From an uncultured Oscillospiraceae bacterium (GTDB lineage Bacteria > Bacillota > Clostridia > Oscillospirales > Ruminococcaceae): a stretch of 64,000 nt of DNA. This document shows, piece after piece, positions 6,675-21,610 of the stretch. Under the pieces are notes generated by a model. The model ran no database searches. It was not told where the DNA came from and was given only the letters and a program-made list of their open reading frames with translations. The stretch spans positions 34,006-98,005 of the forward strand of contig CATKAZ010000096.1 of assembly GCA_949745795.1 (NCBI GenBank), written 5' to 3'. Made by a program: the position numbers and the translations under genes. Each line of letters begins with the position of its first letter. Position 1 is the first letter of the stretch.

Positions 6675-6764
6675 ATGAAAATAGTTGTTATTAAAAGTCC
6701 GAAATTTTTGTCAGGTATACTTAGAGTTATTTTCAAAATTAAAAAGGAAGAACCAACAGAATAG
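6675..6764 (+). CDS. spoVM: Stage V sporulation protein SpoVM-like amphipathic peptide, 29 aa (absent from ORF track)
   Basis: Translates to MKIVVIKSPKFLSGILRVIFKIKKEEPTE, resembling B. subtilis SpoVM (MKFYTIKLPKFLGGIVRAMLGSFRKD). Preceded by TTGGAGGGA RBS; position after thiN matches Bacillus synteny. Confidence 0.88.
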   Translation: MKIVVIKSPKFLSGILRVIFKIKKEEPTE

Positions 6765-6776
6765 TAAAACATAAAA

Positions 6777-6807
6777 AAGGGACTTTTTCAATTGTGAAAA
6801 GTCCCTT
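6777..6807. terminator. Intrinsic terminator hairpin
   Basis: AAGGGACTTTTTC-aatt-GTGAAAAGTCCCTT between convergent genes. Confidence 0.75.
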
Positions 6808-6813
6808 GATTCT

Positions 6814-7026
6814 TTATTTATTTTGTTCCATTTCGTTTCTTAGATTTTTTAAATTTTGGTTGCAGTAATATAATATTTCGTGCATAAGATTTACTCCGTA
6901 AGAGAAGTTATCACCGTCAGCAGGATTTAAGTCAGTACGGTAGGCAAGTATAAATAGAATTTCTTCAACTCCTCTTGATATTCTTAGAGTATTGTCAAGC
7001 TTATTAATTACATCTAAATCGGTCAT
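6814..7026 (-). CDS. Small hypothetical protein, 70 aa
   Basis: ORF with GAAAGGAAA RBS upstream of ATG at 7026 (MTDLDVINKLDNTLRISRGVEEILF...). Confidence 0.6.
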   Translation of the reverse strand: MTDLDVINKLDNTLRISRGVEEILFILAYRTDLNPADGDNFSYGVNLMHEILYYCNQNLKNLRNEMEQNK

Positions 7027-7049
7027 ATTTAATTTCCTTTCTGTTTTTA

Positions 7050-7078
7050 TTGACAACCCACGAAAGGAATGCTATAAT
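7050..7078 (+). promoter_or_regulatory. Consensus sigma-A promoter of putative sRNA unit 1
   Basis: TTGACA (7050-7055), 17-nt spacer, TATAAT (7073-7078). Confidence 0.8.
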
Positions 7079-7084
7079 AGATTT

Positions 7085-7161
7085 AGCAGATTCCTTTCGA
7101 GGGTTTGTGTGTATAACGGTAACGCTTAACTTGCGATGTGGGGCGTTATCGTTATTTTTTT
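7085..7161 (+). ncRNA. Putative small RNA unit 1 (promoter to intrinsic terminator, no ORF)
   Basis: Starts after consensus promoter; ends at stem AACGGTAACGC/GCGTTATCGTT plus T7. Near-identical copy at 7433-7521. Confidence 0.6.
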
Positions 7162-7328
7162 ATATCAGACTTTAATTTTTCAATCCCTCTGCGAACGGCT
7201 TCGGCTTTTTCAACATTTTCCTGCTTGCAATAAGCTTTTAATGTTTCAAAGCTTTCATTGTCAAGCCTTACAGTTATTCTTTCGCTTTTAGGATTTTCAA
7301 TTTTAGGTCTGCCTGTTCGTGGACTCAT
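7152..7328 (-). CDS. Ribbon-helix-helix (CopG/Arc-like) small DNA-binding protein, 58 aa (absent from ORF track)
   Basis: Translates to MSPRTGRPKIENPKSERITVRLDNESFETLKAYCKQENVEKAEAVRRGIEKLKSDIKK; GAGGTGA RBS; consensus promoter upstream. Confidence 0.82.
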   Translation of the reverse strand: MSPRTGRPKIENPKSERITVRLDNESFETLKAYCKQENVEKAEAVRRGIEKLKSDIKK

Positions 7329-7362
7329 GTTTTCACCTCACTTTATGTCTGCCACTAAAAAC

Positions 7363-7391
7363 ATTATAAACTATGTCTGCCAAAAAGTCAA
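7363..7391 (-). promoter_or_regulatory. Promoter of RHH gene 1 with direct-repeat operator
   Basis: Minus strand TTGACT-N17-TATAAT; TGGCAGACATA repeated twice (complement at 7344-7354 and 7372-7382, 28-bp period). Confidence 0.75.
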
Positions 7392-7408: not shown

Positions 7409-7438
7409 TTGACTTCTTCCCCAAAATAATGCTATAAT
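7409..7438 (+). promoter_or_regulatory. Promoter of putative sRNA unit 2
   Basis: TTGACT (7409-7414), 18-nt spacer, TATAAT (7433-7438). Confidence 0.7.
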
Positions 7439-7444
7439 AGATTT

Positions 7445-7521
7445 AGCAGATTCCTTTCGAGGGTTTGTTGTTGTAACGGTAACGCTTTGTTTTCGATTGT
7501 GGGGCGTTATCGTTATTTTTT
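7445..7521 (+). ncRNA. Putative small RNA unit 2
   Basis: Repeats unit 1 (GCTATAATAGATTTAGCAGATTCCTTTCGAGGGTTTGT...); ends in TAACGGTAACGC/GCGTTATCGTTA hairpin plus T tract. Confidence 0.6.
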
Positions 7522-7683
7522 TCCCTCAAGCAGTAAATAAATACCTTGCCTTATTGCTTCACCTTTGGTTATTCCGTGTTCTTCACAATACTTTTTTAAT
7601 TTGGCTTCTGTTTGTGCATCAAGACGAATGCTGTAGCGAATATTCTTTGGATTTTCTGCTTTAGGACGTCCTATTTGTGACAT
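7513..7683 (-). CDS. Ribbon-helix-helix small DNA-binding protein, 56 aa
   Basis: MSQIGRPKAENPKNIRYSIRLDAQTEAKLKKYCEEHGITKGEAIRQGIYLLLEGKK; internal ATG at 7683 preferred over 7821 (GAGGTG RBS, promoter TTGACT-N17-TATAAT upstream). Confidence 0.85.
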   Translation of the reverse strand: MSQIGRPKAENPKNIRYSIRLDAQTEAKLKKYCEEHGITKGEAIRQGIYLLLEGKK

Positions 7684-7744: not shown

Positions 7745-7921
7745 TTATTTTTTGTCCTGTGACATAAGTAAATGAATGCCTTGCCTAATGGCTTCTGCTT
7801 TTGTGATGTTATTTTTTTCACAGTACTCTAATAATTGCTTATGCATTTCGTCATTAAGCCTTACTTTGACGTCATTTACTTTTGGACTGTCAGTAGGTCT
7901 GCCCATTTTTTTGGAACGCAT
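7745..7921 (-). CDS. Ribbon-helix-helix small DNA-binding protein, 58 aa (absent from ORF track)
   Basis: MRSKKMGRPTDSPKVNDVKVRLNDEMHKQLLEYCEKNNITKAEAIRQGIHLLMSQDKK; AGTGAGGTGA RBS. Confidence 0.83.
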   Translation of the reverse strand: MRSKKMGRPTDSPKVNDVKVRLNDEMHKQLLEYCEKNNITKAEAIRQGIHLLMSQDKK

Positions 7922-8009: not shown

Positions 8010-8123
8010 TTGACATTTTATGGTATTAATGATATAATAAAACTACGGAAAATATTTTTTGATTTTGCCTTCCTTATAGGCGATAGTAACGCTCTGTTTA
8101 ACAGCAGGGCGTTACTGCTATTT
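8010..8123 (+). ncRNA. Putative small RNA unit 3 (promoter plus hairpin), diverged
   Basis: TTGACA (8010-8015)-N17-TATAAT (8033-8038); AGTAACGC...GCGTTACT hairpin about 70 nt downstream; no ORF. Confidence 0.45.
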
Positions 8124-8261
8124 AATTGAGTTAATATTGATTTTTATGTCTTGACATTTTTAACGGTAATGCAAATGCGTTGCCGTTTTTACTTTTATCT
8201 GCAATAATTTCTCATAATATAGAAAGCATTTTCATATAAATTTATTATATGGAGGTGTATT

Positions 8262-21439: not shown

Positions 21440-21468
21440 AATCCGTACAAAAAAAGTACGGATTTTTT
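21440..21468 (+). terminator. clpX terminator
   Basis: AATCCGTAC-aaaaaa-GTACGGATTTTTTT. Confidence 0.8.
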
Positions 21469-21479
21469 TAAAAAAAGCC

Positions 21480-21508
21480 TTGACAAAATCTATATAGTAT
21501 GATATACT
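21480..21508 (+). promoter_or_regulatory. Promoter of tRNA gene
   Basis: TTGACA-N17-TATACT, 25 bp upstream of the tRNA. Confidence 0.75.
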
Positions 21509-21533
21509 ATATAAGTACTCAAAACTTATATAT

Positions 21534-21610
<77 letters not shown>

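Follow-up and report, generated by a model that had tools for sequence, protein, structure and literature searches.

A convergent antisense RNA in a phage-type RHH module predicted to silence the next gene by leader refolding

Our data indicate that positions 7050-7161 of the window (the whole 64,000-nucleotide stretch of DNA analysed here) likely specify a convergent antisense RNA of a P22-immI/pMV158-type RHH module, in which the Shine-Dalgarno sequence (SD) of the next gene is blocked indirectly, by refolding of the mRNA leader. The anatomy, conservation, covariation, and energetics of this unit were established by computation. In the proposed mechanism, RHH1 would repress its own promoter, which would also drive the downstream gene (ORF70 here; in phages often an antirepressor gene). 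A small RNA made from the opposite strand, sRNA1, would form a duplex with the mRNA that extends from the RHH1 stop codon as far as the L arm of a hairpin in the leader. As long as L is free, it would pair with the R arm, leaving the next gene's SD open; once sRNA1 occupies L, the released R arm would pair with the SD and turn translation off. We infer that the RNAs are made and that the switch works in cells. A single DNA stretch would serve as promoter on one strand and as translation switch on the other.

The promoter of sRNA1 (7050-7078, plus strand) consists of TTGACA at 7050-7055, a 17-bp spacer, and TATAAT at 7073-7078, with TG ahead of the -10 element; the TTGACA-N17-TATAAT arrangement proposed by a sequence-only reading of this DNA is borne out as a 12/12 consensus match. 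The predicted sRNA1 of about 77 nt (7085-7161, plus strand) is antisense to the 3' end of RHH1 and the leader downstream of it, and comprises a 5' hairpin, a terminator hairpin (approximately 7113-7156), and U7. The T7 of the earlier reading is present at 7155-7161, whereas its 11-bp stem proved to have 15-18 pairs, counting G-T pairs. Overlapping ORFs begin upstream of the -10 element or extend past the terminator, in agreement with the claim that the transcript encodes no protein. The stop codons of the RHH genes lie inside the terminators as had been described, that of RHH1 at 7154-7152 (minus strand) in sRNA1 and that of RHH2 at 7515-7513 in the second unit. Terminator-like sites number 6 compared to 0.9 +/- 0.9 in shuffled sequence; the promoter count is weak alone (11 compared to 7.5), with the two best sites being the 12/12 matches at 7050 and 8010.

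The 7050-7161 units had been read as a likely small RNA beside a convergent RHH gene, and this is partly supported: the features point to a discrete RNA of about 77 nt, which would be a convergent antisense RNA of an RHH-repressor/effector operon of the phage immunity kind and not a free-standing gene, and the adjacent RHH gene would be a component of the system and not a mere neighbor. We rejected a stand-alone sRNA acting in trans on unrelated targets, since the conserved cis geometry speaks against it. Rfam gave no match at or above the gathering score at the sRNA unit in the window and 18 related loci, so that the repeat is not accounted for by a known element family. A ctRNA_pND324 match at 8030-8117 was discarded, being far below the gathering score and on the opposite strand.

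The proposed partner copy at 7409-7521 is a real near-copy of unit 1, with the exception that its promoter (7409-7438, plus strand) reads TTGACT-18-TATAAT and lacks the consensus -35 element and the 17-bp spacer. The predicted sRNA2 of about 78 nt (7445-7522, plus strand), likewise antisense to the 3' end of its RHH gene and the leader that follows, shares the 5' part of sRNA1 and differs in the terminator loop, which is where the two copies had been said to diverge. The repeat of 7071-7161 at 7431-7521 is likewise genuine, with a single 1-base indel (spacing 360, then 361), 87% identity over the first 75 nt, and 100% over the last 25; genome-wide it is present in two copies only, both in the window. 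Unit 2 has kept its sRNA and lost the switch because the RHH1 promoter now comes after it; sRNA2 could still target the ORF70 leader in trans. Furthermore, we found a third promoter and hairpin, absent from the earlier reading, at 8010-8125 (plus strand). This decayed or orphan unit has a 12/12 promoter (8010-8038), a hairpin (8084-8117), and a weak T-run; it is divergent from RHH3, has no remaining convergent RHH gene, and its read-through might reach ORF8262. A hairpin at 8162-8187 with a T-rich tail (AACGGTAATGCAAATGCGTTGCCGTT), preceded by TTGACA without a -10 element, is possibly a fourth, more decayed unit.

Three RHH genes lie on the minus strand: RHH1 (7152-7328, 58 aa, an Arc/CopG-type repressor), RHH2 (7513-7683, 56 aa, convergent with sRNA2), and RHH3 (7745-7921, 58 aa). 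All match the transcriptional repressor family phrog_876 (E 2e-15, 4e-14, and 5e-17, respectively) and, weakly, Arc-like repressors, with Pfam RHH below its cut-off; the genome holds three genes of this family, all in this array. A putative RHH1 operator (7345-7382, minus strand) consists of two identical copies of TGGCAGACAT (10/10) at a spacing of 28 bp, located within and beyond the RHH1 promoter, which RHH1 presumably binds. Upstream of RHH3, a putative operator has two copies of TGGAACTC, 26 bp apart (9/10), while the region upstream of RHH2 contains no convincing repeat at a spacing of 25-28 bp. Direct repeats 25-28 bp apart are found upstream of 35% of RHH genes compared to 2.4% of shuffles, and this is the correct spacing; a test at 18-25 was negative. 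Individual RHH genes seem to have operators of their own.

The probable target of sRNA1 is ORF70 (6814-7026, minus strand), on the far side of the convergent RHH gene, which encodes a small acidic protein (pI 4.7) and is followed by the terminator of the RHH-ORF70 operon (6777-6807, minus strand), a hairpin and then a T-run on that strand. ORF70 has no Pfam or PHROG family match and is no recognised antirepressor. A comparable orphan unit in a different Clostridia genome (L189) carries a homologous small ORF (E 1e-7), and among 299 host-family genomes searched ORF70 was found in one, its own. For small ORFs common to the comparable units of several genomes, Ka is below Ks in every pair compared (for example 0.14/0.76, 0.10/0.34, 0.09/0.54, and a weaker pair of 0.65/1.21); these ORFs appear to be under purifying selection.

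In three genus relatives (L119, L120, and L122), thiN clusters with a SpoVM-like ORF and an M50-peptidase-like gene but no RHH gene, and in two of them ORF8262 lies between these neighbors. Since the RHH array is absent from all three, the approximately 1.4 kb that hold it are an island of this species. In the window, a 29-aa ORF (MKIVVIKSPKFLSGILRVIFKIKKEEPTE, 6676-6762, plus strand), which we take to resemble the sporulation peptide SpoVM, is kept beside thiN across the genus. Given the island's absence from relatives, the degenerate state of units 2 and 3, and the lack of evident phage genes among neighboring ORFs, the array could be the remnant of a dead prophage, functionless in this host today. 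We consider this improbable, though the strongest of the competing explanations: unit 1 retains a 12/12 promoter, an intact RHH gene, operator repeats, a terminator, and an intact predicted switch, and the low Ka of the shared small ORFs in comparable units also argues against decay.

Our data indicate that the pairing of an RHH repressor with an antisense RNA is widespread among clostridial and streptococcal phages and genomes. When phage records were searched at the DNA level, the RHH1 promoter and N-terminus matched Streptococcus prophages and C. difficile phages. In the three phage loci examined, a convergent promoter lies between RHH and the next gene, together with a terminator that ends at the stop codon of RHH; the next gene encodes an antirepressor or is a small ORF with an antirepressor gene behind it. 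Streptococcus, Clostridioides, and uncultured Clostridia all have phages with the layout of RHH, convergent sRNA, and next gene, in many cases ahead of antirepressors (named as such in the depositors' annotation of Javan119, Javan570, MismyG, and phiCDIF1296T); in Fusobacterium phage phiFN37 a Rha regulator follows the unit. The C. difficile phage phiCDIF1296T and the Streptococcus prophages offer a ready test set for antirepressor silencing.

We found more than 120 distinct relatives of the RHH-sRNA unit in total. Scanning IMG/VR with RHH1 and with RHH2 turned up 91 loci; together with phage records, one host-family genome, and the two window units, these yielded a first set of 69 distinct gaps, of which 68 remain when WIN2 is left out, grouped at 75% identity into 57 clusters. 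Bacterial genomes provided a second set of 57 new gaps. Relatedness among gaps was reduced by clustering. Across the 69 gaps, which are approximately 120 nt long, the best antisense promoter score averages 10.4, whereas dinucleotide shuffles reach 7.8 and the sense strand 7.7; scores of at least 9 occur in 91% of gaps and 9% of shuffles, and 67 of 69 share the position and the exact 17-bp spacer. A terminator was found in 58/58 representatives, giving predicted RNAs of 58-85 nt (median 71). The gap contains the entire promoter, with the -35 end at a median distance of 24 nt upstream of the start codon, and the predicted RNA begins 47-99 nt (median 60) upstream of the effector start codon, with the SD outside the duplex. 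We make no claim of a conserved U-turn (YUNR) loop, found in only 19/58 predicted loops. Of four host-family matches in the initial DNA search, L014, L016, and L017 shared only a promoter-like stretch and were dropped, while the fourth, L015, is a true module. In L015, at 1320-1850, an attenuator of this kind is flanked by a putative RHH gene of different build and by a short antirepressor ORF of the ORF6N type; therefore, the RNA device is not tied to one RHH type.

When the mRNA strands are aligned on the -10 element, they share an inverted repeat L, a loop (the -10 complement), R, the -35 complement, and the SD. Read as mRNA, the sRNA promoter DNA is the loop of the L:R hairpin, the R arm, and the start of an anti-SD hairpin. 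In the ORF70 leader (minus strand), L is AACCCTCGAAAGGAATCTGCTA at 7084-7105, supported by the MFE leader fold and by L:R covariation and nearly all covered by sRNA1; R is TAGCATTCCTTTCGTGGGTT at 7055-7074, predicted to pair with L if sRNA1 is absent and with the SD if L is taken; and the SD, for which we predicted the opening cost, is AGAAAGGAAA at 7033-7042. Because the sRNA starts just inside L, it could bind L but not R. Blocking of L was modelled and the energies were predicted, with downstream starts and SDs set by rule.

We found that the predicted cost of opening the SD in 68 leaders increases from 3.7 with L free to 9.1 kcal/mol with L blocked (p 4e-13), whereas in shuffled leaders it goes from 3.3 to 3.0 kcal/mol. 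The increase is seen in 68/68 leaders, exceeding 1 kcal/mol in 62 and amounting to 1 kcal/mol or less in six. In the second set, the 57 gaps from bacterial genomes, the cost increases from 3.1 to 7.35 kcal/mol (p 2e-9), by more than 1 kcal/mol in 48/57 and by 1 kcal/mol or less in nine. For unit 1 the values are 0.6 and 7.5 kcal/mol, a difference reached by 0/1000 shuffles. These results depend little on the assumed start site, and when L-R segments are swapped between loci the increase is 1.8 compared to 5.4 with a leader's own segment. Furthermore, we compared the fit of own and foreign partners by permutation among the 57 cluster representatives, a procedure chosen over a covariance model because the MAFFT alignment A3 misplaces the arms. 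The own-locus fit is far from chance for L:R (z -21.8) and R:SD (z -12.8), whereas the L:SD control lies at chance level (z -0.9); since this control keeps real sequences, the permutation answers the objection that any R fits any SD.

In pT181/pIP501 attenuation, an antisense RNA takes one arm of a hairpin and the alternative downstream hairpin is a terminator. Capture of an arm that yields an alternative hairpin is shared with the unit described here, whereas the alternative hairpin here holds the SD. The R:SD hairpin might nonetheless terminate transcription in the pT181/pIP501 manner, instead of or besides blocking translation, and in 28/68 leaders the 7 nt preceding the start codon do include 5 or more T. 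We regard this as unlikely, as the ORF70 leader has no such T-run (AAATTAAATATG follows the SD), nor do most relatives, and the stems are often A/U-rich and contain the SD itself.

The refolding switch is not found at every junction. Where the gene after the unit is another RHH gene with its own promoter, it is mostly missing: no increase in SD cost above 1 kcal/mol was seen at the RHH-to-RHH junctions of L134, L139, L149, L158, L165, L174, L178, L183, and WIN2, with the junction of L162 as an exception (2.7 to 5.7). L:R pairing is often kept at the switch-less junctions, which may reflect a second role of the palindrome or recent duplication. This retention, and the centering of the palindrome on the -10 element, would fit a DNA operator for the sRNA promoter, with the RNA acting, if at all, by simple antisense pairing; we give this little credence, since it leaves unexplained both the own-locus R:SD fit and the SD energy shift in both sets of gaps. 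Strong convergent promoters inside an operon could also interfere with transcription of the RHH-ORF mRNA, the RNA being a by-product, which is very improbable because collision requires neither L:R:SD complementarity nor a conserved leader geometry.

P22 sar is the long-standing textbook antisense RNA controlling a phage antirepressor. The P22 immI region (arc-sar-ant) and the present unit share an RHH repressor upstream in the same operon and a convergent antisense RNA of approximately 70 nt in the gap with its terminator at the RHH stop codon, which here are sequence features; many phage relatives also share the downstream antirepressor; ORF70 is without a family match. In P22, the gap is 68 nt and the antisense promoter lies inside ant, so that sar directly overlies both the SD and the start codon of ant (PMC13397905; P22 sequence checked). 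Here, in contrast, the gap is approximately 120 nt and the predicted RNA stays off both, with refolding instead. In pMV158 (PMC4485353), the gap is 60 nt and RNAII, 48 nt with a single-stranded 5' tail, is directed at the replication initiator. The copG-RNAII-repB region shares with our unit the RHH repressor, a convergent antisense RNA with its end close to the stop codon of copG, and translational inhibition of the next gene (predicted here). The downstream genes differ, being antirepressors or small ORFs here and not rolling-circle replication initiators, and the passages of PMC4485353 used here describe no L:R:SD switch. The C4 RNA of phages P1/P7 and the 24B_1 RNA also repress antirepressor genes (PMC12197685); C4 blocks a ribosome-binding site by pairing and is not the convergent, terminator-ended RNA of an RHH module. 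Relative to the P22/pMV158 layout, the indirect block of the SD by refolding would be a different RNA mechanism. In an open-access library of the literature, we found no description of this RHH-sRNA family.

Pfam assignments of the first downstream genes (n=64) include Rha (7), ORF6N (6), Bro-N (6), AntA (3), and P22_AR_N (2). After a small first ORF, the next long ORFs (n=30) include Bro-N (10), KilAC (ANT) (5), AntA (4), Rha (3), ORF6N (2), and HNH_3 (2), where a single protein can bear several of these domains. Our data indicate that phages may use this unit to keep antirepressor genes quiet, and suggest that the module may control other phage cargo as well. By inspection, HNH-type phage endonuclease-like genes replace the antirepressor after the unit or small ORF in five loci (L028, L047, L058, L072, and L160). 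The module would account for a group of small RNAs and small ORFs that lack annotation in gut bacteria.

We infer that the array in the window, which ends in the small acidic ORF70, descends from phage modules. Tandem chromosomal RHH-sRNA arrays beside housekeeping genes are found in other Clostridia (L134, L158, L165, L174, L149, L178, and L183). Such antirepressor-less arrays adjoin polA and a pseudouridine synthase gene, rpsI and truA, leuS, pckG, or spoVAC and amidohydrolase genes, and several, among them L165, L183, and L185, have a small ORF at their end and keep its switch intact. Terminator loops vary from unit to unit, and this, together with separate operators, would suit immunity groups. 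A conceivable but doubtful extension is that the orphan arrays, with their own operator and terminator-loop specificity and no antirepressor, are trans-acting immunity banks of Clostridia that silence antirepressor or early genes of incoming phages with matching leaders and operators. Among IMG/VR contigs, none contained the exact 19-nt 5' segment of the sRNA or the RHH1 operator-promoter, and the best leader from outside the window for sRNA pairing (L041) reached -79 to -80 compared to -142 kcal/mol for the cognate leader. With no exactly matching phage in IMG/VR and L041 far weaker than the cognate, we rejected phage targets in trans.

Elsewhere in the window, at 21462-21607 (plus strand), the Staphylococcus sRNA S774 of Rfam matched just above threshold; the match overlaps a tRNA and is probably a tRNA-flank artefact.
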